The translations under genes were made by a program, and so were the position numbers. A stretch of DNA of 46,227 bases from Bacteroidota bacterium (GTDB taxonomy: Bacteria; Bacteroidota; Ignavibacteria; Kryptoniales; JAKASW01). Below the pieces are notes generated by a model. That model was not told the origin of the DNA. It did not search any database and saw nothing but the letters and a program-made list of their open reading frames with translations. Every line of letters starts with the position of its first letter. The stretch's first letter is position 1. Positions 11,739 to 27,229 of the stretch are shown here, in pieces. Where the stretch lies: the NCBI GenBank assembly GCA_021825585.1, contig JAKAGT010000032.1:1-46227 (forward strand). Direction: 5' to 3'.

Positions 11739-12503
11739 CTACACAGCGTGTTCCCATGGGAAGTTCCTTCGGCCATAATGCCCGAACGAGGCAGTCTCCA
11801 TGTAACTCCACCCGTCGGGATGCTGCAACCCAAGCCGATCAGTAATTGCCCGCGGCCTGAAATCGAATTCGCGCCGTATTTTTTCCGTAAGCCTGGCCTC
11901 CTGTTGCGGTTCAAAAGGAGTCTGCACGGTAAGGACGCTCGGGCGGTCGATGCCGATGCTGTACGCGACCTTGACAAGAGCTTTGCTTGCGATTCCCGAA
12001 GCGACAATCGACTTTGCAACGAGACGGCACATATAGGCGGCCGAGCGGTCCACTTTGGTAGGGTCTTTGCCGGAGTAAGCGCCGCCTCCAATTTCAACGT
12101 TTGGTCCGTAATTATCTACTACGAGTTTCTGTACGGCATATCCGACCATGATGCCCTGATCTCCTGCTCCACCTGTGTCGACGCCATCGGCAATGTCTTG
12201 CGACCGCTTTGCGACTTTGACTGCCACGTCGATATCGTCGGCGTGACCGATTTCGTGATAGGTCCGGAGCACAATACTCTCGATATCGATGTTGGCTTTT
12301 GCGGTCATTTCGCCGGCAACGAAAACCTTTCCGTGCCCGCCGGTCACTTCGATAGCGACTCGTGCCTGGGGATCCTGCGCGATGGCGGCATCGAGAATGG
12401 CGTCAGCCATCTGATCGCATATCTTATCGGGATGCCCCCCGGTGACATGTTCTGCGGCCATTGACTTCGACATGCGCAGGAAAATCTTTTGTTCGTTAGA
12501 CAT
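11739..12503 (-). CDS. Compact MetK-like S-adenosylmethionine synthetase lacking the central domain
   Basis: The 254-aa product is clearly related to MetK (normally about 380-400 aa). The N-terminal domain is intact: AAEHVTGGHPDKICDQ (His24, Asp26) and DTGGAGDQGIMVGYA (Asp115). The text then jumps straight to QKLVVDNYG, GGGAYSGKDPTKVDRSAAY (Lys146, Lys150, Asp152) and GHYGRRNFPWE of the C-terminal domain. About 115 residues, essentially the whole central domain and the loop equivalent to E. coli Asp238-Arg244, are absent; the Arg position is Gln125. The frame is open, with GGAGAG upstream of the ATG, so it is probably expressed. It could be an active minimal enzyme, a different PPi/Pi enzyme, or a fixed deletion. 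Confidence 0.8.
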   Translation of the reverse strand: MSNEQKIFLRMSKSMAAEHVTGGHPDKICDQMADAILDAAIAQDPQARVAIEVTGGHGKVFVAGEMTAKANIDIESIVLRTYHEIGHADDIDVAVKVAKRSQDIADGVDTGGAGDQGIMVGYAVQKLVVDNYGPNVEIGGGAYSGKDPTKVDRSAAYMCRLVAKSIVASGIASKALVKVAYSIGIDRPSVLTVQTPFEPQQEARLTEKIRREFDFRPRAITDRLGLQHPDGWSYMETASFGHYGRRNFPWEHAV

Positions 12504-12575: not shown

Positions 12576-13781
12576 TCATGAGGCGGCCTTCCTGTTAAGG
12601 CTCATGAAGATCGGAACCGCAATGAGCTGGAGCGCAACTGAAAGGATGACAACCGCAGGTATCCAGACATCGTACAGAATCCCCAGTAAGACGCTTCCGA
12701 TAAACCAGAAGATACCGTAGCCTGCAGTGAAGATTCCATAGGCCGAGGGCCGACGCTGCTGCGGTACCATGGTGACAACGGCGGCAGGTATAATGGATTC
12801 GTGAACTCCCATTCCAAGCCCCCATAAGGCGGAACCGATGAGAGCAAACCAAAATCCGCCCAGAAATACCAAAGGAGCCGATGCAGCGGAGATGATAGTT
12901 AAAGGGATCAGTATCTTCAGGCCGACGCGATCGAACAAACGTCCGAAGACAAGTGAGCCGGCCCCGCTGACGGCCATTGCAATCGAGTAGAACACAGGAA
13001 TCCACGTAGTGGGGATACCATCGGTTTTCTGGAAATGAAATGCGATAAGCGAGAAGTCCGCAAATCCCGCAGCGACTAGAACGGCCCCGGCCAGGTAGAT
13101 CCAGAACATTCTCGGGAGCCCCTTAGACTCCACATTTGGCGGAGGTGCAGGTTCAAGATCCTCCGGCTTCGGATACAGAATGCGGGCAGTGAAGATAAGG
13201 CTCACACAAATCACGGCAGGCACAAGGAGTGTGGCGAAGGCGATTCTGTAACTCCCGTGTGCTGCGAGGACAGCCGCTAGCACGAGAGGGCCGAGGAGCG
13301 CGCCAAGCTGGTCGAGTGCTTCATGCGTTCCGAAGACCCATCCGTATCCCCCGAGCTGCTTGCCTGCGTGGGATAGCATAACATCGCGGGGCGGGTTGCG
13401 GGTAGCCTTCCCGAGCCGTTCCATAACTACGAGGAGGCCAAAGACCAGCCAGTTCGGAGCCAACGCCATTAGCGGCACTGAGCTCATTTGAATGACGTAG
13501 CCGAAGAGTGTCACCGGCCAGAATCTCCCGGTGCGTTCGCTGAACCTGCCAGAGACGAGGCGCCAGCCATATCCGAGAAGTTCGCCGAATCCCCCGATGA
13601 TACCGACAAGTGTGGCACTCGCGCCGAGAACCGCGAGATACGGCCCCGCGATACTTCGCGCTCCTTCGTACGTGCCATCCGCAAAGAGGCTGACGATGCC
13701 AATAAGGAGCACAAATCTCAGAGCGGACCGCTTCTTCTGCGGTTCTACGTAGACCGACACTTTTTCTTCGCCTGCTGACAT
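12576..13781 (-). CDS. Major facilitator superfamily transporter
   Basis: The 401-aa inner-membrane protein has about 12 hydrophobic segments and an MFS-like loop 2-3 signature (GYGWRLVSGRFSERTGR) plus the family element ERLGKATRNPPRDVMLSHA. An intervening charged loop (residues about 208-225, PKPEDLEPAPPPN) divides two 6-TM halves. The substrate is unknown. Its position between PAP2 and the MetK-like gene in the fluoride run suggests a metabolite or ion exporter role, but nothing in the sequence fixes it. Confidence 0.85.
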   Translation of the reverse strand: MSAGEEKVSVYVEPQKKRSALRFVLLIGIVSLFADGTYEGARSIAGPYLAVLGASATLVGIIGGFGELLGYGWRLVSGRFSERTGRFWPVTLFGYVIQMSSVPLMALAPNWLVFGLLVVMERLGKATRNPPRDVMLSHAGKQLGGYGWVFGTHEALDQLGALLGPLVLAAVLAAHGSYRIAFATLLVPAVICVSLIFTARILYPKPEDLEPAPPPNVESKGLPRMFWIYLAGAVLVAAGFADFSLIAFHFQKTDGIPTTWIPVFYSIAMAVSGAGSLVFGRLFDRVGLKILIPLTIISAASAPLVFLGGFWFALIGSALWGLGMGVHESIIPAAVVTMVPQQRRPSAYGIFTAGYGIFWFIGSVLLGILYDVWIPAVVILSVALQLIAVPIFMSLNRKAAS

Positions 13782-13802: not shown

Positions 13803-14522
13803 CTATTGCGCTGCCGACCGCAGCATAGCTTCCTCCTTGAAGGTTGCATTCACATAATTCCCAACCGACACAGATATTATCGCCGCAAGCACGACATCCG
13901 AAAACCAATGCTGATCGTGATAGATTCGCCCAAGACAGGTAAGCACTGCGAGCAAATACCAGAACGCTTTCCATATTTTGTTACTGGAAAAGCCAGCGAG
14001 GATCATCGAATATGCCACAGCTACACCGACATCGCCCGAGGGAAGCGACAGATGAGCATTGGGACCGAATGTGAATCCGACGAACGCGAAGCTGCCGTGT
14101 CCGGTGTACGGTCTCCATCTGCCGAAGATCGACTTAAGGACTGTGACGATGATACCGGATATCGCAAACGCCTCAAAAATCATCCACCCCGCTATCCGTA
14201 ATTTCTCGTGCTGGAGAACCAGGCCAAACACGTAGAGGATAACAAAGGTATCAAGTGTCAGATGAATCTTGCCATACCAATGTGCGAATCCAAAGACCTC
14301 GTCAAGCAAGGGAGTATGAATTTCCGCAAAGAACATCCGTATGTGCGGGTCGAGAAAGAAGAGCCCGGGAAAGACGATTACTCCCACGGCCACATATTCC
14401 CAGGTCGTCCTTTTCCATCCGAATGGAAGTCTGTAAAACGAAATGAGATCATTCCATAAATGCTGAAAGTCACCCGTTATCGTTCGCAATCGCCCTGAAG
14501 ATTTCATGTCATTCATAGTCAT
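13803..14522 (-). CDS. PAP2-family membrane phosphatase with altered PSGH motif
   Basis: The 239-aa protein has about six TM helices and PAP2 motifs: K130-x6-R-P (KSIFGRWRP), PSG (161-163), and R199-x5-H205-x3-D209 (RIYHDQHWFSD). The usual PSGH histidine is Asp164 (codon GAT). I start at 14522, one base after the stop of the preceding gene; the frame extends 22 codons inside that gene without a ribosome site. Family members dephosphorylate lipid phosphates or undecaprenyl pyrophosphate at the membrane. The substituted residue is the conserved motif-2 histidine proposed as the general acid, so activity may be altered. Confidence 0.85.
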   Translation of the reverse strand: MTMNDMKSSGRLRTITGDFQHLWNDLISFYRLPFGWKRTTWEYVAVGVIVFPGLFFLDPHIRMFFAEIHTPLLDEVFGFAHWYGKIHLTLDTFVILYVFGLVLQHEKLRIAGWMIFEAFAISGIIVTVLKSIFGRWRPYTGHGSFAFVGFTFGPNAHLSLPSGDVGVAVAYSMILAGFSSNKIWKAFWYLLAVLTCLGRIYHDQHWFSDVVLAAIISVSVGNYVNATFKEEAMLRSAAQ

Positions 14523-14523
14523 A

Positions 14524-16401
14524 TCAAAGCAGGAAGGCAAGCACAAACACAATGACGATATATAGGATGTACAATGAGATTTTTCCATTCATAATGGTCC
14601 GGCCGACAAGGTAGCTCAGCCTCCTTACAAACTTGTCCAGAATCTCGTAAAGGTACTCAGCGAGATCTTTGTTGGTGACTTCCGCCGTGTAGCCCATCCT
14701 CGTCTCCTTCGTGCGGTAAACCTTGCGGAGAATGTATTCCAAAATGAATGAGTATGCCGGTACTGTGAAGTACTCGTCTTCGGTGAGCGTCTGGCCTCCG
14801 TTCCAGGCCTGCACGCGCCTGGCTTTCTTTGCACTCCGGTGGTAAAGGAGGTAAGGTACGATAAACAGGAATCCGACCACCACAACAAACATTGTAGGCG
14901 AGACAACTCCGAATATCGGATTACTCGAAAGAATGAGTAACGGATCCGGTACGGCAAGCAACCCACCCAGGAAATTTGAGTAGCCGAGGATCTTGATCAA
15001 GAAAGGCGAAAATATTCCGCCCAAAAGAATCAACGCGGTAAGGAACACCTCCGAAGACCTTATCTTGAGCGACGGGAACCGGTGGGCCTTTTTACCGTGG
15101 TCGGGACCGAGGGCCGTGTACCCGATCAGTTTTATCATGGAAAACGCGGCGAGGCCAATCGCGAGCGCGATGAGAATTCCGGCGAAAGCCGTCAATAGCC
15201 GTTGAGCATTGCCCTGAAACTTATATGACTGAAAGAGAGCTTCGAGGATCATCCATTCTCCCACGAACCCGATGGTCGGAGGAAACGCGCTGAATGAAAG
15301 TCCCGAGGTCAGGATGCCGAATGCAGGAATTCCCCCAACGTTGCTCCATATTCCACGGACGTTGTCTATCGATTCTTCCTGAAGCGACTCTTTGGCGTGC
15401 CCAACCGACATGAAAAGTAGCGACTTTGCCGCGGTATGTGAGAATGCGACAAACAGAGCCGCGAGAAAGGCAAATCGCGAGAGTACCATCATAGGCTGTG
15501 ACCCCGACGCTCCTGCCATCGCGCTTAGGCCGATGGCAGTGAGTATTATACCGTTGTTCTCCACCGTAGAATAGGCCGGAAGCTTTTTAAGACTTCTCTC
15601 GGCAGCGGCTTGCATCGCACCCCAGAAAGCCGAAACCGCTCCGAAAGCCATGAGACCTATTCCCCACCAGTCCGAATACCCAGCGATTGATAAAGCTCGG
15701 ACAATGCCGTAGACTCCCATGAGAGTCAACGGGGCACTCAGGAGGGCGGCAGTGTTAGAGGGAGCCTTCGAATAGGAGCCCGTGATCCAAGTGTGAAATG
15801 GAAAAATATCCATTTTTATAATGAATCCCAGAGTTACCATCACAAGAAAAAACGGAGTCGCTGTCACACCCGCCTTTATCGAGAACGTGCCGCTGGATAG
15901 GAAGAGAGCCGCAAACCCGATGATGAGAGCCATGGCCGATGCTTCGCCAAATGCCAGGAATCGAAAAGCATCTTCGTAGGAATCCTTGCGTTCCAGGATT
16001 TGAAGAAACAAGCCAATTGTCATTACTTCCCAGCCGATCATAAAATTTACTGAATCCTGGGCAGCCATCACGAGAGTCATCCCGAAGAGTGACAGGTTGA
16101 ACCACGCAGCCATCTTCCTGCTAAAAAGTTTTCCGAAATCGATGGAGTAGAACGATAGTGCGATGAAAGAAATGGAGGCGACCACAAGGAAAATACCGGA
16201 AGTTGCGTCGAGGCCAACGCTGATGGAGAGTCCAGGTATGATGGAGCAGCCCGGCGACGAGAAGCTGTTTATCATGGCGGATATGCCCGCGACGAGGGAC
16301 GAAATGGAAGCCGCGAAGGCTGTCCAGTAGCTCAGGTACTTTCTTGATGATGCGGCAACCCCGATCAAGTACAAGGCAAGAGAAAGATAAAGAAATATCA
16401 T
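14524..16401 (-). CDS. Ehr-like complex antiporter-type subunit (HyfB/HycC-like)
   Basis: The 625-aa, roughly 16-TM protein belongs to the NuoL/M/N-MrpA proton-translocating family (PF00361 type). Conserved patches include NFMIGWEVMTIGLFL, the PFHTWITGSYSKAPSNTAAL segment, AYSTVENNGIIL, SHTAAKSLLFMSVGHA and SAFPPTIGFVGEW, with a C-terminal extension as in HyfB. It begins 1-2 nt after the small-subunit gene. It is one of two antiporter-like subunits in the complex and is expected to move H+ or Na+. Some canonical residues in the PLHxWLPxAHPxAP region are changed (Gly/Ser for Pro/His). Confidence 0.88.
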   Translation of the reverse strand: MIFLYLSLALYLIGVAASSRKYLSYWTAFAASISSLVAGISAMINSFSSPGCSIIPGLSISVGLDATSGIFLVVASISFIALSFYSIDFGKLFSRKMAAWFNLSLFGMTLVMAAQDSVNFMIGWEVMTIGLFLQILERKDSYEDAFRFLAFGEASAMALIIGFAALFLSSGTFSIKAGVTATPFFLVMVTLGFIIKMDIFPFHTWITGSYSKAPSNTAALLSAPLTLMGVYGIVRALSIAGYSDWWGIGLMAFGAVSAFWGAMQAAAERSLKKLPAYSTVENNGIILTAIGLSAMAGASGSQPMMVLSRFAFLAALFVAFSHTAAKSLLFMSVGHAKESLQEESIDNVRGIWSNVGGIPAFGILTSGLSFSAFPPTIGFVGEWMILEALFQSYKFQGNAQRLLTAFAGILIALAIGLAAFSMIKLIGYTALGPDHGKKAHRFPSLKIRSSEVFLTALILLGGIFSPFLIKILGYSNFLGGLLAVPDPLLILSSNPIFGVVSPTMFVVVVGFLFIVPYLLYHRSAKKARRVQAWNGGQTLTEDEYFTVPAYSFILEYILRKVYRTKETRMGYTAEVTNKDLAEYLYEILDKFVRRLSYLVGRTIMNGKISLYILYIVIVFVLAFLL

Positions 16402-16402
16402 C

Positions 16403-16894
16403 TTAGTTCACCTTCCCCATCAGATTTAGAAGGACGGCGATGATGTCTTTCGGCTCACGGTAGTTTGTGATACGGGCTGCAACATTTGTAAGCCCAAGAC
16501 TGGCGATATCAACTCCCACTTCCCTTCCGATAAACCCGTTCTCTCCTTCGGACTCTATTGACACAATTGAATAGGGACCGGGCATTTGATTTGCCGTCTC
16601 GAGTAAGACGGGGACCATCTTTTCAATTGGTCTGCCGAGAACCAGGAGAACATCGGCGTGCCGCGGTACGTCGGCGAAGAATATTCCGAATCTATGAATG
16701 TTGTACTGCGGTGCCTGGAGAGCCCTGATGTCGAAGTTCAGATCATTTGCATTGCCGACATCGATCGGATAGACGTGAAGGGATTTTCTGAAAATACGGG
16801 ATGCCGATGGGACGTCCAGGTCCTTCGAATAACCTGTCCGTTCGGTAAGTCTTCTTGTTAATCCCCAAATGGGCCACCACTTCGGCGACTTCAT
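16403..16894 (-). CDS. Ehr-like complex small subunit (NuoB/HycG-like) without FeS cysteines
   Basis: The 163-aa protein aligns along its length with HycG/NuoB: RIFRKSLHVYPIDVG, IRALQAPQYNIHRFGIFFAD, PRHADVLLVLGRP and EPKDIIAVLLNLM. It contains no cysteine at all. The CxxC segment (usually GSCNGCEIEI) reads GNANDLNFDI, and the two later cluster cysteines are also replaced, so the N2-type [4Fe-4S] cluster cannot be bound. This is a hallmark of energy-converting-hydrogenase-related (Ehr) complexes. It is separated from the large-subunit gene by a 196-bp gap holding an AT-rich repeat. Confidence 0.85.
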   Translation of the reverse strand: MKSPKWWPIWGLTRRLTERTGYSKDLDVPSASRIFRKSLHVYPIDVGNANDLNFDIRALQAPQYNIHRFGIFFADVPRHADVLLVLGRPIEKMVPVLLETANQMPGPYSIVSIESEGENGFIGREVGVDIASLGLTNVAARITNYREPKDIIAVLLNLMGKVN

Positions 16895-16937
16895 GATGTC
16901 ACTCGATTATGAAGCGGCCTGCAACTCATTATGGAAG

Positions 16938-17092
16938 AAATTCTAAACACTAAATCCGAAATCCTAAACAAACTCAAAACTGCAAAACTCAGGCCTACGA
17001 AAATCACTATCTATCTTCCTTTCACGGTTTGTTGAAATTGAATCTTGACCATTCGTATTTGTTTAGAGTTTAGAACTTAGGATTTCGAATTT
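16938..17092. repeat. AT-rich intergenic repeat, copy A
   Basis: Contains AAATCCGAAATCCTAAACAA near 16952 and ATTCGTATTTGTTTAGAGTT near 17051, which form an imperfect inverted repeat. The same two blocks in the same order occur at 21355-21512. The repeat ends at the TAA stop of the large-subunit gene, so it inserted in or right next to the junction between large- and small-subunit genes of one complex. Confidence 0.7.
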
Positions 17093-18344
17093 ACCTTGCT
17101 GCATCTGCGAAATATGCTCCGAAAGATTCGACTGCGAATGGAAAATCGGTGAAAATGTTTCCAACGAGGGATTCACCTATGGCTTTGAATCCAAATATTG
17201 AAGGTGTGGCTGCATAAACAGAGGATATCTTCCCGTTCTGCAGCTCGACATAATATGCCAGGAGGCCGCTCGGCGATTCACAATAGCCGATTCCTGAACC
17301 GGAGCCGTCAGGCACGGATTTATTATCGGTGGCCGGTGCACTTCCGGAATCTCTTAGTTCCTTTAACTCTCCGGACATATCCGATATGATCTCCACAGAC
17401 TCGAACACTTCTTCCGCCCTGACTTCCATTCGCGCCAGTGAATCTCCCATCTGAGATGTGGCGCACCTGAGACCTTCATAATCCTGGTCCTGGAGTCTGA
17501 AATCCTCCCTCACTCCTGTGGCTCTGAGCGTCGGACCTGTAACTCCAATTTTCTCAGCCTTCTCTGAATCGAGTTTTGCAGTATCGTGCAAACGATCCAT
17601 GAAGTTTTCGCTTTCAAGTGCGCGTTCGTAGAGATAATCAAATCGGTCGGACAGGCTCCCAAGTCGGCGGGAGAGATGAATCAGGGCTTCATCGTTGAAA
17701 GGTTTTGCTGTACCTGAGATTCCGTTGAATCCCCTGAGGAACCTCGACCCGAAGAAGTCATTGTTAAGACGGAGAAGGTCTTCGTAAATCGCCTGAAGGT
17801 GACTCGTCATGACTTTTTGCGCCGCGGCGGATGCCAGCTGCGAGATGGCATAAATGTGGTTATAAATTCTCTCCAACTCTAGCGCAATTATGCGAACCTT
17901 CCTGAGCTGCGAAGGAACTTCTATTGCAAGAGCCGACTCGATTGCCCTTGACATTGCGAGCGAATGAGAGAAAGCGAAATTACCACAGACGCTCTCAGCG
18001 ACGTTCAAGGCATCTTCGACGCCGAGGCCGATGGCTGAACTTTCGAGACCGCGGTGTTTGTAACTCCAGTCGATGTTTACACAAAGTATTCTTTCGCCGT
18101 ATGTGTAAAGATGATACGCGCCAGCCTCCATAACACCACCGGTTACGGGTCCATATCTAAAATCGAAGACGCCGTCACCAAAGACCTCCTGCCCTGTTAT
18201 CCCTTTGTCGCGATCGGCCACCGACTTCAGTTGCTTCGCAATCCATTCTTCCCCGCTTGCTTCCGACGTCGACCAAACCTTCTTACCGTCATGGAGCAGG
18301 AGTTTATCCTGATCACATCCCGCGATACCTACTGCCCGAATCAT
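17091..18344 (-). CDS. Ehr-like complex large subunit (HycE/NuoD-like) without NiFe ligands
   Basis: The 417-aa protein matches the HycE/HyfG/NuoD family: FRYGPVTGGVMEAGAYHLYT, YKHRGLE, LNVAESVCGNFAFSHSLAMS, LELERIYNHIYAISQLA and GVTGPTLRATGVREDFR. The first NiFe motif, usually RxCGxC, is SVCGNF, so the second Cys is lost. The C-terminal DPCxxC motif aligns with GAYFAD, so both Cys are lost. Three of four Ni ligands are missing, which excludes hydrogenase activity. A low-complexity insertion (GSAPATDNKSVPDGSGSG) sits near residue 335. It overlaps the preceding gene by ATGA. Its function is presumably structural or quinone-linked, as proposed for Ehr complexes. Confidence 0.87.
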   Translation of the reverse strand: MIRAVGIAGCDQDKLLLHDGKKVWSTSEASGEEWIAKQLKSVADRDKGITGQEVFGDGVFDFRYGPVTGGVMEAGAYHLYTYGERILCVNIDWSYKHRGLESSAIGLGVEDALNVAESVCGNFAFSHSLAMSRAIESALAIEVPSQLRKVRIIALELERIYNHIYAISQLASAAAQKVMTSHLQAIYEDLLRLNNDFFGSRFLRGFNGISGTAKPFNDEALIHLSRRLGSLSDRFDYLYERALESENFMDRLHDTAKLDSEKAEKIGVTGPTLRATGVREDFRLQDQDYEGLRCATSQMGDSLARMEVRAEEVFESVEIISDMSGELKELRDSGSAPATDNKSVPDGSGSGIGYCESPSGLLAYYVELQNGKISSVYAATPSIFGFKAIGESLVGNIFTDFPFAVESFGAYFADAAR

Positions 18345-19711
18345 CGTACAACCACTCCCTTCAGGAAGTAGTAGACAACCGGAGTAAGGAAGACCATACT
18401 GAATGCAATGATCAAGCTGACGATGGGGACCGTGGCGTTATCGTCCATCTTTCCGGACTGTTCAGCCGGTTCGGAGAACACCATCCTGATTACCCGGTAG
18501 TTCACCCCGATGAATGCCACTACGAGGAACGAGGCAATGAATAACGTGAACCAGACGCCATAGACTTGCAACATACGAGTCATTATTAACATCTCGCCGA
18601 AAAAAGTCCCGAAAGGCGGAGCTCCCGTCACGGCCAAACCGGCGAAGAACAATGAATAACCAGTAAGTGGCATTGTCCTGGAAACACCTTTCACATCCCT
18701 TATGGCATTCGTACGATAGCTGGCGAGGACGTTACCCGTCAAAAAGAAGGCGGCTGATTTCGCGAAGGCGTGAGTCAGTATGATTATCACGCTTCCGATG
18801 AACGCGTTCCCTCCAAGCGCGATGCCGATGAGAGCGACGCCCATGTTTTCGATTGAAGAGTACGCAAACATGCGCTTGTACTGTCTCTGCGAGAAAGTCA
18901 TGAGCGAGGCCACAATAACACTAAGTGAGCCCAGGACAACGGCGAAGTTCCTGACGCTTTGCATCGGGACGATCTGGACGAACCTCACGATAGTATATAG
19001 GGCGACCGGGAGAAGAATAGCGGAGAACATCGCGCTTATGGGTGCCGGAGCACGGCCGTGGGCGTCGGGAAGCCAGGTGTGCATCGGGAAGATTCCGCCC
19101 TTCGTCCCGTAACCTATGATCCCGAGAAGGGCGCCGACAGAGACAATTTTTGTTGCCTGCGGGGCCTGGAGAAGTGCGTTAAGTGACAAAGTGTGGAAGC
19201 CGCCGTAGATGAAGATTGTAGCAAGGAGGGAGATGGTAAGGCCCGTTGAGACAATAATAATGTATCTCCAGGTGGCTTCTACCGCGAGCTCGTTATTGTC
19301 TGTCGCGATCAGGAGCGCGCTGGTGACGGTGGTGGCCTCCACTCCGACCCACAGCAGCCCGACGTTGTCCACCATGACGGTGAAGAACATGGAGACGACG
19401 AACAAATTCAAAAGAAGGAAGTAAAGATTGGCCTGAAAGAGTTTGTTCTCAATGTGTTCAAGATATTGTATAGAAAAAATGACGGTGAGAACGTAGACCG
19501 CAGAAATCATTATCTGCATGAGCTTGGAGAATCCGTCCACATAGAGTCCAAACGAAGCTGCGTTCGGCAGGAAAGCAATAAGTATCGATGATGCCAGAGA
19601 GGCAAATGAAGCTATGATTGAGACATCTTCTTCAAACTTGGTTCTCGGCACGAGACAGAGTAGTCCGCCAATACCGCTGAGGACGACCGGCAAATAATAA
19701 ATCCAAATCAT
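18341..19711 (-). CDS. Ehr-like complex antiporter-type subunit (HyfF-like)
   Basis: The 456-aa, about 13-TM member of the NuoL/M/N family has GLLWVGVEATTVTSALLIA, GYGTKGGIFPMHTWLPDAHGRAP with the conserved Lys, YSSIENMGVALIG, THAFAKSAAFFLTGN and GAPPFGTFFGE. These retain the Glu, Lys and His residues of the proton path. It shares ATGA overlap with the large subunit and starts 3 nt after HyfE-like. With the HyfB-like subunit it gives the complex two probable ion channels. Confidence 0.9.
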   Translation of the reverse strand: MIWIYYLPVVLSGIGGLLCLVPRTKFEEDVSIIASFASLASSILIAFLPNAASFGLYVDGFSKLMQIMISAVYVLTVIFSIQYLEHIENKLFQANLYFLLLNLFVVSMFFTVMVDNVGLLWVGVEATTVTSALLIATDNNELAVEATWRYIIIVSTGLTISLLATIFIYGGFHTLSLNALLQAPQATKIVSVGALLGIIGYGTKGGIFPMHTWLPDAHGRAPAPISAMFSAILLPVALYTIVRFVQIVPMQSVRNFAVVLGSLSVIVASLMTFSQRQYKRMFAYSSIENMGVALIGIALGGNAFIGSVIIILTHAFAKSAAFFLTGNVLASYRTNAIRDVKGVSRTMPLTGYSLFFAGLAVTGAPPFGTFFGEMLIMTRMLQVYGVWFTLFIASFLVVAFIGVNYRVIRMVFSEPAEQSGKMDDNATVPIVSLIIAFSMVFLTPVVYYFLKGVVVR

Positions 19712-19714
19712 CGA

Positions 19715-20377
19715 TTAACCTCTTAATTCCGTGAAGTCCTCACGTGGAGTCAGATCGTCCACGTCGGCGTTCTGGGCAGGTTCCTCTTTGAGCCTGACAA
19801 TGACTCCGGAGATCATTATGGTACCTATTACATCGAGCACGACCCCGGCTTCCACCACGAATGGAAGTTCCGGAAAGAGAAAGCCAAAAAGGTAAAGGGC
19901 GTTTTCCATCACGAGATAGCCGATGAGCTGGGTGGTTGGCGTGCGTCTTGAAATTATGAGAAAGGCACCCTGAAGGAAGAGGGCGATCGGTATTGCACCC
20001 AGTGCCGAATGAACGTAGTCATACATCGTCCATGAATAGATCACGTATCCGAATACCGCGAACAAGAGTGAGAGGATAATAGTCGACGCGATACCGAGCA
20101 CCGGCTTGATTTCTCTCGCCCTCCAGCGGTCGCGTCGAAGCATTCTCGAGAGAAAGCTCGGGATGAACCATGCACGTATTAGCGCGGTGAACCCGCCGAG
20201 TGCAATCAGGTATGGCTCATGACCGACATAGCCGGCAGCAAGCAGGAAGGCGGCCAGAACGTAAGAGCCGACTGAGAAAGTTTTGATTACGCTGGATACA
20301 TAAGTCTGCCACTGCATGAAGGTGACGAGAGCAATTTGAACAAAACCGACAAGAACAAAGATGCTGTTAAGTGTCAT
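19715..20377 (-). CDS. Ehr-like complex membrane subunit (HyfE-like)
   Basis: The 220-aa protein has six or seven TM helices and HyfE features: ALGAIPIALFLQGAFLIISR, QLIGYLVMENALYLFG and PFVVEAGVVLDVIGTIMISG, including the NuoK-like Glu residues in the last helices. It overlaps the HyfC-like gene by ATGA. HyfE combines a NuoK-like core with extra helices in hydrogenase-4-type complexes. Confidence 0.88.
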   Translation of the reverse strand: MTLNSIFVLVGFVQIALVTFMQWQTYVSSVIKTFSVGSYVLAAFLLAAGYVGHEPYLIALGGFTALIRAWFIPSFLSRMLRRDRWRAREIKPVLGIASTIILSLLFAVFGYVIYSWTMYDYVHSALGAIPIALFLQGAFLIISRRTPTTQLIGYLVMENALYLFGFLFPELPFVVEAGVVLDVIGTIMISGVIVRLKEEPAQNADVDDLTPREDFTELRG

Positions 20378-21333
20378 CGAAATCCCCCGCCTGTCCGGGT
20401 TGTGAAGAATACCAGGGCCGCAAGGAATGCGAATACAAACGTGACGGACACAAAATCAAATATCTTGAACAGACGGTATTTGGAAACCGACTCGTTTAGG
20501 AGCGCAAACACGATGAGGAGCGCCAGTATTTTCACAAAATTTATTACCGGGTAAACGAGGAGTACGGTCATTGAAGGCGTCATCGGAACGAGGAATGGAA
20601 CGGCGAGGACGTTCATGAAAACATTCATAAGGAGGAAATGCTTCATGTACCCTCCCCATTTATAGAGGGCCAGTTCCGTGCCGGAATATTCCATCTCCAT
20701 TGACTGGGCTATCATCCCCAATTCGCCCATGGTATGAGACTCTATGGGCAACTTGCCTGTCTCAACGATTAAGACCATGAAGAACGCTATCGTAACGAAC
20801 CAGTGCACGAGTGAGCCGTACCAGGTGCCGGAAGTCTGAAGGACATTGTTTATGACATACGGGTTGTTCGTCTGGGATATGACCCCAAGCATTATGAAAA
20901 TGAGGAGCATTATAGGCTCCGAGAGGGCCCCGACGCTGGCGGCCCTCGATGTTCCCAAATGCGAATAGTTGTTTCTGCTGTCGATAGCAGCGAGCTTCTT
21001 CACTGTGGCCGCAGCTCCGAATACGAGGCCGCCGCCAATGAAGTCAACGACCGGTCCGAAAGTCAGCGGAAAGGCAGTTAAGATGGGGAGGACCAGGGTG
21101 AGGAGAAGATAGAACGCGAACGTTATGTAAGGCGCGACCATGAAGAAGGGCGAAGCAACAGTTGGCACCAGGCTCTCCTTGCGGAAGAGCTTCGCGAGAT
21201 CATAATACGGCTGGAAAACAGACGGACCCTTTTTCGACTCGAGAACTTCCTCGATCTTCACGAGTATCCCAGCGGCCAGCGGCGCCAGCAGTAGAACGTA
21301 CAGAAGTTGTAGTAAGCTTAATAGTAGAAGCAT
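20374..21333 (-). CDS. Ehr-like complex membrane-arm subunit (HyfC/NuoH-like)
   Basis: The 319-aa, about 8-TM protein is typical of HyfC/HycD: KKGPSVFQPYYDLAKLFRKE, VETGKLPIESHTMGELGMIA, and MEMEYSGTELALYKWGGYMK. NuoH-like subunits link the hydrophilic module to the membrane arm. It is the first gene of the Ehr-like block, in the order HyfC, HyfE, HyfF, large, small, HyfB. No HyfA/HyfH/NuoI ferredoxin-like gene is present in the block. It lies 313 bp downstream of DUF190. Confidence 0.9.
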   Translation of the reverse strand: MLLLLSLLQLLYVLLLAPLAAGILVKIEEVLESKKGPSVFQPYYDLAKLFRKESLVPTVASPFFMVAPYITFAFYLLLTLVLPILTAFPLTFGPVVDFIGGGLVFGAAATVKKLAAIDSRNNYSHLGTSRAASVGALSEPIMLLIFIMLGVISQTNNPYVINNVLQTSGTWYGSLVHWFVTIAFFMVLIVETGKLPIESHTMGELGMIAQSMEMEYSGTELALYKWGGYMKHFLLMNVFMNVLAVPFLVPMTPSMTVLLVYPVINFVKILALLIVFALLNESVSKYRLFKIFDFVSVTFVFAFLAALVFFTTRTGGGFR

Positions 21334-21646
21334 AAACAGAACTAACTCACTCAGTAAAATCCTAAATACGAAACTCTAAATCCTAAACAAATTCAAAACA
21401 CACAAACTCAAAATACCCAAAACTCTTTGTCTCCAATCCAAGAGAGCACAGATTCTTTTGAACATTCGTATTTGTTTAGAGTTTAGCATTTTGAATTTAG
21501 AGTTTCTAAATCCAAGGTAGGCGCCATCAGCGATAGCGTGTTTCCGAAAGGATTTTCGGAAAGGAGGGCGTCATCTCCTAAATGACACGATAATTTAGTG
21601 AAGCGGCCCTGAAGAATCAAATGCTATCGCAAGGCCGCGTCACGTG
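21334..21646. other. Gap in the fluoride run, repeat and hairpins only
   Basis: Between the crcB-linked DUF190 and the HyfC-like gene. It holds AT-rich repeat copy B (21355-21512), a clean stem TTTCCGAAA-GGAT-TTTCGGAAA (21540-21561) and a GC-rich palindromic patch around 21600-21640. No gene is visible. The hairpin lacks a T-tract, so read-through from crcB into the Ehr block is possible, but an internal promoter here cannot be excluded. Confidence 0.5.
21355..21512. repeat. AT-rich intergenic repeat, copy B
   Basis: Shares CTCTAAATCCTAAACAAA (about 21373) and ATTCGTATTTGTTTAGAGTT (about 21463) with copy A, in the same order and spacing, again forming an imperfect inverted repeat. Both copies lie at gene borders of the Ehr-like block. 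Confidence 0.7.
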
Positions 21647-22000
21647 TCAGGGCGTCTTTCCCGGGGTATAGTGGATCACGGTTGCCTTTTCCTCTGTGAC
21701 CATTCCTCCGCAACCGGCCTTCTCGAAGAGTTCGGTAACTATTGGGAGGAAAGAATCGATTTTCTCTTCAGTGTCCACTATCTCGATGACCAGTGGGAGA
21801 TCCTCGCTGAGTTCGAGAAGCTTTGCGGTATGGATCCTGCTTGTTGCCCCATAGCTCTCCACGCCGCGAAGGACTGTCGCGCCGGCAAGTCCGAATTCTT
21901 TCGCCCGTTCCACGAATACCTGATAGAGAGGTTTCCGGTTGAGGTGGTCCTCTTCGCCGATAAAGATCCGGAGAAGTTTACCCGTGCCTTCAAGTTTCAT
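21647..22000 (-). CDS. DUF190 family protein (crcB-linked copy)
   Basis: A 117-aa DUF190 (COG1993, PII-like fold) protein: GKLLRIFIGEEDH, KEFGLAGATVLRGVESYG, SEDLPLVIEIVDTEEK and GCGGMVTEEKATV. The start is set by the ribosome site GGAGG 5 nt before ATGAAACTTG at 22000; an open frame to 22045 runs into crcB and places that site inside the gene. The crcB-DUF190 pairing is common in bacteria, which supports a shared role in fluoride or ion homeostasis. It is second after riboswitch 1. Confidence 0.92.
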   Translation of the reverse strand: MKLEGTGKLLRIFIGEEDHLNRKPLYQVFVERAKEFGLAGATVLRGVESYGATSRIHTAKLLELSEDLPLVIEIVDTEEKIDSFLPIVTELFEKAGCGGMVTEEKATVIHYTPGKTP

Positions 22001-22011
22001 TTTATCCTCCA

Positions 22012-22386
22012 TTAGATTATTCTCCCTGCCAGCATTCCGACCCATGTAGCGGTGAGTCCGACGACGATCGAAACGCCAACGTTCAACAACCCAATCGCGA
22101 TGGCACCATCCTTGAGCAGCCCAACGGTCTCGAAGCTGAAAGTGGAAAACGTGGTGAATCCACCAAGCACTCCAACCGCAAAGAAGATTCGGAAAGAGGG
22201 GCTGATGAGAAACCTGTCCTCTGCCATCGTAAGAAACAGACCTATGACGAAACAGCCTATTACGTTCACTGCGAGAGTACCGTATGGGAAGTTCGTTCCA
22301 AGGACTTTATAAACCCAGCCGGAGAGCAGATATCGAAAAAAAGCTCCGATGCCGCCACCGATAATAACGAGTATATTTCTAAACAT
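22012..22386 (-). CDS. crcB: CrcB/Fluc fluoride channel
   Basis: The 124-aa protein has four TM helices. Family signatures are GGGIGAFFRYLLSGWVY, FPYGTLAVNVIGCFVIGLF and GVLGGFTTFSTFSFETVGLL (the GxTTFSTF phenylalanine-box motif). Fluc channels are dual-topology dimers that let fluoride leave the cell. It sits directly behind riboswitch 1 and its terminator, confirming the fluoride reading. The ribosome site is weak (GAAAGAAG). Confidence 0.97.
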   Translation of the reverse strand: MFRNILVIIGGGIGAFFRYLLSGWVYKVLGTNFPYGTLAVNVIGCFVIGLFLTMAEDRFLISPSFRIFFAVGVLGGFTTFSTFSFETVGLLKDGAIAIGLLNVGVSIVVGLTATWVGMLAGRII

Positions 22387-22420: not shown

Positions 22421-22475
22421 AAAAATTCCTGTCGCGCACAGTTGGTCCATAATTAAAAAGACCGTGCGGACAGGA
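22421..22475 (-). terminator. Riboswitch 1 expression-platform terminator
   Basis: On the minus strand TCCTGTCCGCACGGT (22475-22461) pairs with ACTGTGCGCGACAGGA (22442-22427), followed by ATTTTTG. The 5' arm starts inside the aptamer's ACTCCT 3' strand, so terminator and ligand-bound aptamer exclude each other: fluoride binding should allow read-through into crcB. Confidence 0.85.
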
Positions 22476-22526
22476 GTCATCATTTGCGTCACGTACGCAA
22501 AGCTTATTCGGCGAACTCCATCGCCT
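22470..22526 (-). promoter_or_regulatory. Fluoride (crcB-motif) riboswitch 1
   Basis: Minus-strand RNA starts with GGCGATGGAGTTCGCC (22525-22510), then a GC stem-loop (TTTGCGTACGTGACGCAAA), and closes with TGATGACTCCTG. This matches the fluoride riboswitch consensus. It lies about 85 nt upstream of crcB with an intrinsic terminator between. No strong promoter is obvious upstream. Confidence 0.93.
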
Positions 22527-22626
22527 ATGTCAATTTGTGCCGTCGCCGTTTACAACGATCTGGCACACCAACAATTTAATTAACGCCGCCATGTAAGCAA
22601 ACTAAAAAAGAATTCAACGGGCCTCT

Positions 22627-23019
22627 CTATTTATCCAAAATTCTCTCTACAATCAAAGAAGCAACCGCAGAGTTGAACTTCCCTCTTTTCTTCAAACCGG
22701 AAGCCACACTCGCGTCGTCTTCACCGAGGATCGACGCGATTGCACGTATAAAAGCACGCGCCATGATGGGATCAAGATCTGCGCGGTTCGCAAAAGCATT
22801 GGCGATTGCCGCCGCACCGGCTTTCGATTTTCGCATCGCGAGGATTTCCGCGGCACGAATCGCAGTTTGGGGCTCGAAGTGCATAAGAGCCTTGATCAGT
22901 TTCTCTTCATAACTCAAATCACTGAAGACTGTAAGGTCACTGCCACATGAAGGACAGACGGCGTCTTCCTGAAGGACTTCGCGCCAACATTCTGTGCAGA
23001 ACAGCTTTACTTCAGACAT
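22627..23019 (-). CDS. Zinc-ribbon plus helical-repeat protein
   Basis: The 130-aa protein begins with a zinc ribbon (C8-x2-C11 ... C22-x2-C25: FCTECWREVLQEDAVCPSCG). It is followed by helical residues 35-130 of HEAT-like character (AIRAAEILAMRKSKAGAAAI, ANRADLDPIMARAFIRAIAS). Function unknown. It is the last gene of the run behind riboswitch 2 and ends about 100 bp before riboswitch 1. A palindromic element separates it from the gene upstream. Confidence 0.7.
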   Translation of the reverse strand: MSEVKLFCTECWREVLQEDAVCPSCGSDLTVFSDLSYEEKLIKALMHFEPQTAIRAAEILAMRKSKAGAAAIANAFANRADLDPIMARAFIRAIASILGEDDASVASGLKKRGKFNSAVASLIVERILDK

Positions 23020-23032
23020 CTCGATTGAGTCG

Positions 23033-23096
23033 TGAACTCACTATGGAGTGGATCGCCACTCCCGATCCCGCTGGCGAGTGATCGGGATCGCGATGA
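23033..23096. repeat. Intergenic palindromic element
   Basis: Contains CGATCCCG...TGATCGGGATCG followed by CGATGACGG, plus a second stem GGATCGCCACTCC...GGCGAGTG. The CGGGAT-plus-second-stem layout resembles other double-hairpin elements in this window. It lies within the riboswitch 2 gene run and has no T-tract. Confidence 0.45.
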
Positions 23097-23137
23097 CGGA
23101 TTCTGTAGAGAGGGGTTGAACCATAGGTGGACTCCCA

Positions 23138-23554
23138 TTAATGCGAATCCTTCAACTCGTGCAGGGCCTTTTGTACGTAACTCTTTGCCACCTCTACGTC
23201 GTCCAGCATTTTGTCGGCAATGGCGAGCTGCTCGTATGGATCGTACGATACCTCGTTCCAATCAAAATAACCTTCGAGGAATTTCGAGCCGAAATCGTGA
23301 TTGGCGATCTTCACATTCTCGAAAGGATACAGTATCTCCATCTTTTCGCTCTTCAATACACGTTCAAAATTGTCGACGAACTCCAGCAAATCGCGGGCGG
23401 CTCTCTCGGGATCCTCAACAAAGACGAGAAGAAGAGTTATGAGTGTGTCCAGCCGCTTCGTGTCAGCGCGCGAAGTGCAAACCTTGCGTAGAGTGTCGAC
23501 CGCAAATGTGAGCTCATCACGAGCGCGTTTCATAGAGTCTGCGTTCCCCGTCAT
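23138..23554 (-). CDS. Hypothetical helical protein, 138 aa
   Basis: Not recognised. It is almost entirely predicted helical and acidic (KRARDELTFAVDTLRKVCTS; DPERAARDLLEFVDNFERVL), with no signal peptide or TM segment. Its start overlaps the DUF6062-like gene stop (ATGA), so it is coupled within the riboswitch 2 run. A partner for the Cys-rich proteins is plausible but unsupported. Confidence 0.65.
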   Translation of the reverse strand: MTGNADSMKRARDELTFAVDTLRKVCTSRADTKRLDTLITLLLVFVEDPERAARDLLEFVDNFERVLKSEKMEILYPFENVKIANHDFGSKFLEGYFDWNEVSYDPYEQLAIADKMLDDVEVAKSYVQKALHELKDSH

Positions 23555-24300
23555 AACCTCATCTGTCCCGAAAAGAAGTTCACGACATCAAGATAGCTGT
23601 CGAGCTCGTCGCGTGTGTAGTCGTGATCGCTCTGATAATCGTGCTTCTTTATGAAATTCGAAAGATCAACCTTCATTCTGTTCATCTTCTCAAGCGTAAC
23701 GTCGAGGACACGTGCGCTTGTCTTCCCCGCCCAAATCGGATCGGCAGCTTCTTGCACGACCATTTGAGTATGCCTGAAGCAAATGACGGTCCTGGATCTC
23801 CTGTAAGCCTCGATGAACTCGCCATCATCGGAAAAATAGACCAGACCGTGCAGCGCTATATTTTCACTTTCCTTCAGGAAGGCACATACGAAGCATTCAC
23901 CTGCGTCGACGGCACCGGAGGGTGGTTTCCTCTTCCGTTTCGTCGTCACTTCTTTTGATTCTCTGACACGCTTAGCCTGTTTCTCAAGCAATTGGAGATG
24001 CTCATCCATTACAGTTTCAAACATCGTGGCAAGATGTAGTCCGTCGCTCTTCAATGTCAGCTCGGTTGCTAATGCGAGTTTCGCGTGCCGGGTACAGAAG
24101 CCATGCTGCTGGTGCAGTTTCTTCCTCACACCGGGATCGAGGACATATTCATAGAGCATCCCTTCCAAGTAGTGCTTTTCTGTCCTTTCAATTTCAGTGC
24201 AAACAGGGCAGCCCGTTCCGCGCAGTGCTTCTTCGAGGCGAATCCAGGTTATTCCCCGCTTCGCGCGTGTCATCTCATCTTCGATAAAAGGCTCCGACAT
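23551..24300 (-). CDS. DUF6062-like Cys/His-rich protein A
   Basis: The 249-aa cytosolic protein carries two metal-site-like modules: GCPVC (about residue 30) with HGFCTRH (about 66-72), and ECFVC (about 134) with VICFRH (about 172-177). The CPxC ... C-x2-H layout is that of DUF6062-type proteins and suggests zinc binding. A basic linker (KRVRESKEVTTKRKRKPPSG) joins the halves. It abuts the next gene upstream without a gap. Function unknown; placement behind a fluoride riboswitch is the main clue. Confidence 0.7.
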   Translation of the reverse strand: MSEPFIEDEMTRAKRGITWIRLEEALRGTGCPVCTEIERTEKHYLEGMLYEYVLDPGVRKKLHQQHGFCTRHAKLALATELTLKSDGLHLATMFETVMDEHLQLLEKQAKRVRESKEVTTKRKRKPPSGAVDAGECFVCAFLKESENIALHGLVYFSDDGEFIEAYRRSRTVICFRHTQMVVQEAADPIWAGKTSARVLDVTLEKMNRMKVDLSNFIKKHDYQSDHDYTRDELDSYLDVVNFFSGQMRL

Positions 24301-24906
24301 CTATTTCCTTCCTGCTAATTTCTCGACGGTCCTCCACAGTGAACTTCTTGCTTCACCAGGGGCCTGGTAATAGTTCTCCGATTCAAGGAGCTTGAGCTGG
24401 TCGGACAGCATTTCCAACGATTGTGCATATGCTTCCACTATTCTCTGTTTGTTCTCAGCAAAAGTGTCGGTGAGTATCTTTTTCAGATGATCAAGACAGA
24501 CAAAATCTCCGGCTGAATTTTCGAACGGTACATCCGCTATCTTCCGTACCTCTTCCCTATCGACTGACTCAAGGTACTCGCAGACTGGACATTTCCGCTC
24601 GTACTCGCGGAAGATACCGTTGATATCGTTCGTACCATCCTCACCGAGGCTTTTCCTTATCAAATATCTGAGCAATTTTGAGGAAATCCCCGAAGAGGTG
24701 ATCCGGTTGAACATCCTCAGGTGTTTGCCGCATATTGCATACAGTCCGTTTGTCTCGAGATAATTCTCGTCCCGCTTTCCCACTTCAAACTGCAACTGTG
24801 CCAGCGTATCGAACTGCACATTCCAGATATGCTCACAAATCGGGCAGCCCTCTGAAACCTGGGTCGCTTCATCAGCATTATTTCCACGGATCGTCGTACT
24901 CGTCAC
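24301..24906 (-). CDS. DUF6062-like Cys/His-rich protein B
   Basis: The 201-aa protein repeats the module of its neighbour: GCPICEHIW with AICGKHLRMF, and KCPVCEYLES with FVCLDHLKKI. The start is a GTG at 24906 that overlaps the C2H2-type gene by 29 nt. No ATG follows soon enough to keep the first CPxC, so GTG is preferred though its ribosome site is weak. It is likely a zinc-binding partner or paralogue of protein A. Confidence 0.65.
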   Translation of the reverse strand: MTSTTIRGNNADEATQVSEGCPICEHIWNVQFDTLAQLQFEVGKRDENYLETNGLYAICGKHLRMFNRITSSGISSKLLRYLIRKSLGEDGTNDINGIFREYERKCPVCEYLESVDREEVRKIADVPFENSAGDFVCLDHLKKILTDTFAENKQRIVEAYAQSLEMLSDQLKLLESENYYQAPGEARSSLWRTVEKLAGRK

Positions 24907-25174
24907 GTTTTATGTAATCCTTTTTAAGGCTGTCAATAATGTCCTCGATGTAGATCGCCTTTATCAAAAGGTTCTCGTTAAGTTTTGGAGCTTCGCCCGA
25001 CGGTGTGGCAACGCGATGAGCATCTATCTTCGCGTCGAGGTGTCTGTCAAGTTCCTCCTTTTCCAGAAACAACTTGTTGCACGCTCTGCACCTGTATTGG
25101 ACGCCGGAGAGTCGTTCGACCGCGAACGGGACGCCCTTCCTCTTTCTGAACTTAACTTTCAACGCCGGGACCAT
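24878..25174 (-). CDS. Small protein with C2H2-type zinc finger
   Basis: The 98-aa protein has a single finger YRCRACNKLFLEKEELDRHL with a second His near IDAHR (residues 27-53). A basic N-terminus (KVKFRKRKG) and a charged helical tail flank it. It is the first gene behind riboswitch 2, about 20 nt after its terminator. It may bind nucleic acid or act as a structural zinc protein; no target is inferable. Confidence 0.7.
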   Translation of the reverse strand: MVPALKVKFRKRKGVPFAVERLSGVQYRCRACNKLFLEKEELDRHLDAKIDAHRVATPSGEAPKLNENLLIKAIYIEDIIDSLKKDYIKRDEYDDPWK

Positions 25175-25194
25175 GGTGTGGCTCCTTCGGTTAA

Positions 25195-25232
25195 TTACAA
25201 AAAGAAACTGCTTCCGACATCGTCAGGAGCAG
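25195..25232 (-). terminator. Riboswitch 2 expression-platform terminator
   Basis: CTGCTCCTGAC pairs with GTCGGAAGCAG around a GAT loop (minus strand 25232-25208; ten pairs, one mismatch), followed by TTTCTTTTTG. The 5' arm overlaps the aptamer 3' strand (ACTCCTGC), as for the other two switches. Confidence 0.85.
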
Positions 25233-25280
25233 GAGTCATCATCATGCTTAGCATGATATCTCGGGCGAACTCCATCGCCT
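25228..25280 (-). promoter_or_regulatory. Fluoride (crcB-motif) riboswitch 2
   Basis: Minus-strand GGCGATGGAGTTCGCC (25279-25264), a stem-loop ATCATGCTAAGCATGAT, then GATGACTCCTG. The core is identical to riboswitch 1. It lies only about 36 nt after the dynamin-like gene stop, so transcripts from riboswitch 3 would meet a second fluoride gate here. Confidence 0.93.
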
Positions 25281-25315
25281 TCAGGCTAAACTTTATGATG
25301 AGGCAGAACCGGGGT

Positions 25316-27127: not shown

Positions 27128-27132
27128 AAAAC

Positions 27133-27164
27133 GAAAAACTCCTACTCTTGGTTGAGTAGGAGTT
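27133..27164 (-). terminator. Riboswitch 3 expression-platform terminator
   Basis: AACTCCTACTC (27164-27154) pairs perfectly with GAGTAGGAGTT (27147-27137) around a six-base loop, followed by TTTTTCGTTTT into the ATG. The 5' arm is the aptamer's own ACTCCTAC strand. The 3' arm contains the AGGAG ribosome site. Confidence 0.93.
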
Positions 27165-27222
27165 ATCAATCCCTTGCATTTTCGCACATTCGGGATGGTT
27201 TCGAGGCGAACTCCATCACCTG
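27156..27222 (-). promoter_or_regulatory. Fluoride (crcB-motif) riboswitch 3
   Basis: Minus-strand GGTGATGGAGTTCGCC (27220-27205) followed by TCGAAACC, the most consensus-like of the three. An internal stem and GATAACTCCTAC follow. It is directly downstream of a sigma70-type promoter and upstream of the dynamin-like gene. Confidence 0.95.
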
Positions 27223-27229
27223 CCTTCAT

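Follow-up and report, generated by a model that had tools for sequence, protein, structure and literature searches.

A hydrogenase-like complex lacking iron–sulfur ligands and a functional NiFe site in a fluoride-riboswitch island of a Kryptoniales bacterium

Organization of the complex and its fluoride riboswitch

The 46,227-nt contig JAKAGT010000032.1 (assembly GCA_021825585.1; Bacteroidota, Ignavibacteria, Kryptoniales), hereafter the window, corresponds to contig C88 in full and comes from a genome of 4.97 Mb. It carries six minus-strand open frames, spanning positions 21333–14524 in the order H-E-F-large-small-B, that encode a group-4 hydrogenase-like complex. The genes are spaced only a few bases apart, except for a 196-nt gap between the large and small subunits, and in PDB profile matches the best solved relatives of their products are mostly subunits of the Escherichia coli formate hydrogenlyase (FHL) and the Pyrococcus membrane-bound hydrogenase (MBH). 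Complexes of this type lacking the CxxC motifs are already known as Ehr (energy-converting hydrogenase-related), and the one described here may be a fluoride-induced member of that family that gave up electron chemistry. The features of the complex are as follows:

20374–21333, minus strand: H subunit, HycD/NuoH-like membrane protein (Pfam NADHdh, E = 2.5e-28; best PDB match HycD, 7z0s_D, E = 1e-24; ETGKLP and the EYSG loop kept)
19715–20377, minus strand: HyfE-like membrane subunit (no Pfam match; NCBIfam hydrogenase 4 membrane subunit, E = 5e-10, below cut-off; synteny)
18341–19711, minus strand: HyfF-like antiporter-type subunit (Proton_antipo_M, E = 1e-49; Glu125, Lys204, Lys279 and the HAFAK motif kept)
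17091–18344, minus strand: large subunit, HycE/NuoD-like (Complex1_49kDa and NiFeSe_Hases matches; best PDB matches MbhL and HycE; ligand columns)
16403–16894, minus strand: small subunit, HycG/NuoB-like, with no cysteine and no ferredoxin domain (profile match to HycG, 7z0s_G, E = 1e-26; AlphaFold2 model; ligand columns)
14524–16401, minus strand: HyfB-like antiporter-type subunit (Proton_antipo_M, E = 3e-30; best PDB match HycC, E = 1e-31, with MrpA second; Glu125, Lys196 and the GEW Glu kept)
21511–21587, minus strand: aptamer of a fluoride riboswitch, directly ahead of the H gene (RF01734, 32.5 bits; gathering score 34)

The initial annotation had placed this complex inside a run of fluoride-associated genes, and the riboswitch searches agree. 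Rfam lists three fluoride riboswitches above threshold in the window (27150–27229, 25223–25288 and 22464–22534), and a genome search with RF01734 added a fourth that the initial annotation had not listed, at 21511–21587, with 177 nt separating it from the H gene. Counterparts at the matching position score 32.0 bits in a second contig of the same assembly (C82) and 34.1 and 33.4 bits in two genomes of the window's genus (L070 and L071), only that of L070 exceeding the gathering score. The element of approximately 77 nt is almost identical across these four loci, while the flanking sequence has diverged. Because it is conserved both in place and in sequence among relatives, the complex is most likely under a fluoride switch of its own, and a false riboswitch call at 21511–21587 was rejected on the same grounds. 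Terminator and promoter scans performed near chance level.

Loss of the metal and redox sites

The small subunit (163 aa) does not contain a single cysteine. GNANDLN stands in place of the GSCNGCE motif, as had been noted initially, and in the alignment with HycG the ligands of the proximal cluster (Cys 48, 51, 115 and 145) correspond to A, L, E and a gap. In the large subunit, SVCGNF and GAYFAD indeed occupy the sites of the two CxxC motifs: the columns of HycE C241/C244/C531/C534 read C/F/Y/D (C120, F123, Y411 and D414), leaving one of the four NiFe cysteines. The canopy residues R478 and D529 (HycE numbering) are replaced by S and G, and the protein stops where a mature hydrogenase would, with no C-terminal maturation tail. 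We considered alternative ligands nearby and rejected them, given that the small subunit is devoid of Cys and that the remaining Cys of the large subunit do not form CxxC pairs. The window operon also lacks a ferredoxin-like subunit and the corresponding electron path. No frame for an iron–sulfur (FeS) protein with a CxxCxxC motif was found near the operons of the window, C82, L071 or G484 (a genome from another family of the window's class), and near that of L070 the only such frame was a 47-aa antisense one. As initially proposed, and as predicted from the lost NiFe and proximal ligands, the complex cannot make H2, nor can it hold an N2-type cluster.

The core of an AlphaFold2 model of the small subunit (mean predicted local distance difference test score, pLDDT, 70) matches HycG (7z0s_G; TMq 0.67, E = 5e-9), which indicates that the fold of this subunit survives without the cluster; for the empty NiFe pocket the assessment relies on the alignment only, as the large-subunit model (mean pLDDT 38) was not used. 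The roles of individual residues in the HycE-type large subunit were taken from PMC9474812. Two elements are retained: Glu73 of the beta1-beta2 loop (HycE Glu193) and the proton line H163/R274/E312 (HycE H284/R395/E437). We had considered the His of the GPxH motif as the catalytic proton donor; this was dropped, since PMC9474812 assigns that role to Asp192/Glu193, and that Glu is kept.

Ion paths and selection

The initial annotation had also stated that the membrane subunits keep their ion-path residues, and this holds for the Glu of transmembrane helix 5 (TM5) and the Lys of TM7 in both antiporter-type subunits (E125/K196 in HyfB and E125/K204 in HyfF), as well as for the Lys/His positions that lie downstream, the Glu of TM12 and, in H, the E-x-x-x-x-P and EYSG elements. 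These residues are conserved, with small exceptions such as a Tyr for His in the TM7 motif of Burkholderia HyfB, in all fluoride-linked members having the subunits concerned. The window HyfB has the TM7 Lys, which E. coli HycC has lost. The upstream riboswitch and the intact ion paths of the two antiporter-type subunits bear out the initial annotation on these points; its suggestion that ions may be moved to compensate for acid entry by hydrogen fluoride (HF) is still the most plausible guess. Direct fluoride control and the proximity of crcB could also mean that fluoride or HF is exported by the complex. We regard this as very improbable, given that a dedicated fluoride channel is encoded next door and that the residues kept in the antiporter-type subunits belong to H+ and Na+ paths. 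To our knowledge, fluoride or HF export has no precedent in this superfamily.

Purifying selection acts on each of the six genes, and the complex is thus maintained. Between the window and L070, the ratio of non-synonymous to synonymous substitution rates (dN/dS) was 0.049 for H, 0.042 for E, 0.056 for F and 0.067 for B, so that the membrane subunits (0.04–0.07) are the most constrained; the large (0.135) and small (0.19) subunits are less so, though still constrained. One might read the missing metal sites, together with the two- to fourfold higher rate at which the small and large subunits evolve relative to the membrane subunits, as the marks of a hydrogenase relic in decay that merely travels with the fluoride island. 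This is hardly tenable in view of frames that are intact in five loci, dN/dS values of 0.04–0.19, and a gene order and riboswitch conserved across phyla. A pseudogene or assembly artefact was rejected on the first two of these grounds. The pattern recurs in C82, L070, L071 and G484, and with purifying selection acting on the whole gene set it is attributable neither to chance nor to decay.

A fluoride-linked clade

Close relatives of the complex were found in C82, L070, L071 and G484. C82 (66–92% amino acid identity) carries a second complete fluoride island (L009, L010) with the gene order of the window and four riboswitches; it may be a paralogue or reflect bin contamination (4.02%), for example from a related strain binned in. 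More distant relatives, with the order H-E-F-L-S-B and fluoride neighbours, occur on plasmids of Burkholderia cenocepacia, Burkholderia multivorans, Caballeronia and Mycobacterium branderi; the sampling of other phyla consisted of plasmids only. A single GTDB scan retrieved only two relatives, both in genomes of the window's genus, and a scan of IMG/VR with the clade alignment gave none. Members were gathered by protein similarity and not by the presence of a riboswitch.

The fluoride-linked members form one clade spanning Bacteroidota, Pseudomonadota and Actinomycetota, joined by Alicyclobacillus in the large-subunit tree (support 100/99). The clade is recovered with support of 100/100 from the membrane subunits B+F+H alone and from the B+F+H+large concatenation, and it holds when each subgroup is dropped in turn. 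The position of M. branderi as sister to the window group received only 82/80. A fluoride riboswitch lies beside the operon in all ten clade members. It falls slightly under the gathering score in the window, C82, L071 and G484, scores 51–56 bits in B. cenocepacia, B. multivorans and Caballeronia, where it is placed between the DUF190 gene and H, and in M. branderi precedes a NUDIX gene that is itself ahead of H. In contrast, none of 13 other Ehr complexes (Rhodococcus, Allomeiothermus, two Cupriavidus, Methylocalor, Paraburkholderia, B. stagnalis, Rhizobium, contig C33 of the window's genome, G097, G014, G428 and G384) has one within approximately 10 kb. These counts are not phylogenetically independent, and the fair claim is therefore that a single clade is consistently linked to fluoride.

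The NiFe site is gone in 10/10 clade members. All ten also have Arg or Thr for the GPxH His and Gly for canopy Asp529, whereas the 13 others have His, and Asp or Asn, at these positions. The remaining redox parts are distributed unevenly. The Burkholderia and Caballeronia members have 4/4 proximal ligands plus two ferredoxin clusters; M. branderi has 0/4 proximal ligands and one ferredoxin cluster (C52, C70, C73 and C76, by motif); and the window group (five loci) has 0/4 proximal ligands and no ferredoxin domain, with canopy Arg478 also lost. Among the other Ehr, 12 of 13 small subunits keep 4/4 proximal-cluster cysteines, including that of C33, and Allomeiothermus (0/4) represents a separate loss. 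The initial description of the window complex as the Ehr pattern is thus right for the NiFe site and not for the FeS clusters. By these ligand counts, total redox loss is peculiar to one subgroup of the fluoride-linked clade. Because the Burkholderia and Caballeronia members have an intact ferredoxin-like part and electron path, the redox-free state probably arose inside the clade as a derived condition, and the simplest reading of the series is that redox parts were removed stepwise while the link to fluoride stayed.

The wired members, together with the Glu73 and internal proton line that the large subunit conserves, would be compatible with a complex that is still a redox-driven ion pump, receiving electrons through a partner whose gene lies elsewhere and a cofactor bound by residues other than cysteine. 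We consider this quite unlikely for the window complex, in which the small subunit has no Cys, the canopy Arg/Asp and the GPxH His are missing, and no ferredoxin-like gene is nearby.

Two Ehr loci outside the clade are worth describing. The window genome itself encodes an ordinary Ehr (G000:C33:94384-95805; L109) with a ferredoxin-like N-terminus, a proximal cluster, a GPIH motif and no riboswitch, which serves as an internal control. The Allomeiothermus Ehr (L076, 11077–11946), not linked to fluoride, has lost the proximal cysteines and kept the four Cys of one ferredoxin-type cluster.

Proposed function

We propose that the complex is a redox-free, Mrp-like cation/proton antiporter that restores pH and membrane potential under fluoride, a reading to which we assign a probability of about 0.5. 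The membrane arm (H, E, F and B) would act as the antiporter, with exchange carried out by HyfB and HyfF together with E and H, and the large and small subunits would be retained as a structural or gating cap. As no electron carriers are present, an ion gradient is the likely driving force, as in Mrp antiporters. HF entry acidifies cells and export by Fluc uses the membrane potential (PMC11139923); under fluoride, the cytoplasm would be acidified while the CrcB channel needs the potential, and an antiporter could restore both. The same job may be filled elsewhere by the Na+/H+ antiporters often tied to the fluoride riboswitch, which are the commonest class linked to it after the exporters (PMC11139923).

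Several observations weigh against this proposal. The soluble arm may still perform chemistry, since Glu73 and the H163/R274/E312 line are kept, and the ancestral job of the clade may have been redox-driven, as the Burkholderia relatives hold a complete FeS chain. The MrpB, E, F and G parts, which Mrp antiporters need, were not recognized in the operon. A plasmid of Alicyclobacillus has a large subunit on its own under a riboswitch, and a search of that plasmid detected no HyfF-like subunit.

This last case bears on another possibility, in which the large and small subunits act as a sensor or gate that responds to pH, Mg2+, fluoride or a metabolite in the empty pocket and switches the membrane arm, so that control and not transport would be the key function. 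A pocket that is remodelled yet constrained fits such a role, as does the Alicyclobacillus subunit with its own fluoride riboswitch. On the other hand, a ligand-binding signature was not found, the most conserved part is the membrane arm, and the Alicyclobacillus subunit was judged to be alone from the plasmid only. We find a primary sensor or gate role unlikely. The Alicyclobacillus gene (L072, 9393–11092) is located directly behind its riboswitch, with two MutS-domain genes and a DUF190 gene nearby.

Returning to the antiporter proposal, a broader scenario can be put forward tentatively, at slightly less than even odds. A branch of the complex I/hydrogenase superfamily would have been recruited to fluoride defence and lost its wiring stepwise (NiFe site and canopy, then the proximal and ferredoxin clusters), becoming a cofactor-free, gradient-driven ion antiporter that keeps a 'dead' hydrogenase module; this machine would then be what fluoride regulons contain as 'formate hydrogenlyase'.

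Relation to known systems

Like Ehr, the window complex combines a group-4/complex I-type set (HyfB, HyfF, HyfE, HycD, HycE and HycG-like) in one operon without NiFe CxxC motifs. Unlike Ehr, the window group has 0/4 proximal ligands (these being usual, not formally defining, in Ehr), no GPxH His, canopy residue or ferredoxin domain, and a fluoride-controlled operon in the order H-E-F-L-S-B. Five subunits are homologous to those of E. coli FHL/hydrogenase-4 (7z0s, L088, L087), with the HyfE-like sixth by a weak match, and the small-subunit fold is shared; however, NiFe, FeS, formate dehydrogenase, HycB, HycF and the maturation tail are all absent. It differs from respiratory complex I in lacking the N2-cluster ligands and the large-subunit GPxH His. 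With Mrp antiporters (PMC9568556) it shares two antiporter-type subunits with Glu/Lys pairs and, by analogy, the proposed function, but it has HycD-, HycE- and HycG-like subunits, and MrpB, E, F and G-like ones were not found.

The association between the fluoride riboswitch and a 'formate hydrogenlyase' dates from Weinberg 2010 (PMC2864571), and a 2024 review reads it as a real, formate-oxidizing FHL (PMC11139923). Similar genes lie under the same riboswitch, and these systems and the window complex very likely belong to the same family, although they were likened by description and not gene by gene. For the members examined here, the real-FHL reading fails because the NiFe site is missing in 10/10. 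Searches of PubMed Central returned no paper joining Ehr and fluoride, and the papers searched report neither a NiFe-less fluoride-linked clade nor a branch with all redox centres lost. These data would correct a published interpretation, in which the fluoride-linked 'formate hydrogenlyase' was taken as a shift to formate fermentation, as these members are predicted to be unable to make hydrogen. The clade also offers a graded set of natural variants of a single complex I relative, all in one physiological role and ranging from full wiring to none, making it possible to test whether a membrane arm can work without redox drive and what a hydrogenase module does besides electron transfer.

Neighbouring genes and other features

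The genes flanking the complex are as follows:

22464–22534, minus strand: fluoride riboswitch upstream of crcB (RF01734, 39.7 bits)
22012–22386, minus strand: CrcB/Fluc fluoride channel (Pfam PF02537, E = 1e-29)
21647–22045, minus strand: DUF190 protein, immediately upstream of the complex (Pfam PF02641, E = 3e-35)
13803–14588, minus strand: gene for a PAP2-type phosphatase, which overlaps the 3' end of the HyfB-like gene (Pfam PAP2, E = 3e-17; equivalent place in C82 and L070)
12576–13781, minus strand: MFS transporter, next in the run (Pfam MFS_1, E = 1e-25; order conserved in C82, L070 and L071)

C82, L070, L071 and Burkholderia likewise have a DUF190 gene just ahead of the complex. Downstream, the PAP2 and MFS genes are followed by a short S-adenosylmethionine (SAM) synthetase, a pyrophosphatase and a phosphoesterase. 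The SAM synthetase frame (11739–12503) encodes 254 aa with the N- and C-terminal domains and no match to the central domain, and the L070 copy has 364 aa; the window copy may reflect a deletion or a shortened enzyme. An AT-rich interspersed repeat (54-nt and 48-nt units) occupies positions 16938–17092, in the gap between the large and small subunits, and 21357–21505, in the leader between the riboswitch and the first gene of the complex. Further upstream, at 22627–27229, a dynamin-like GTPase and five small genes, including one DUF6062 and several with CxxC motifs, lie behind two further fluoride riboswitches; a dynamin gene is present in the Burkholderia fluoride islands too.

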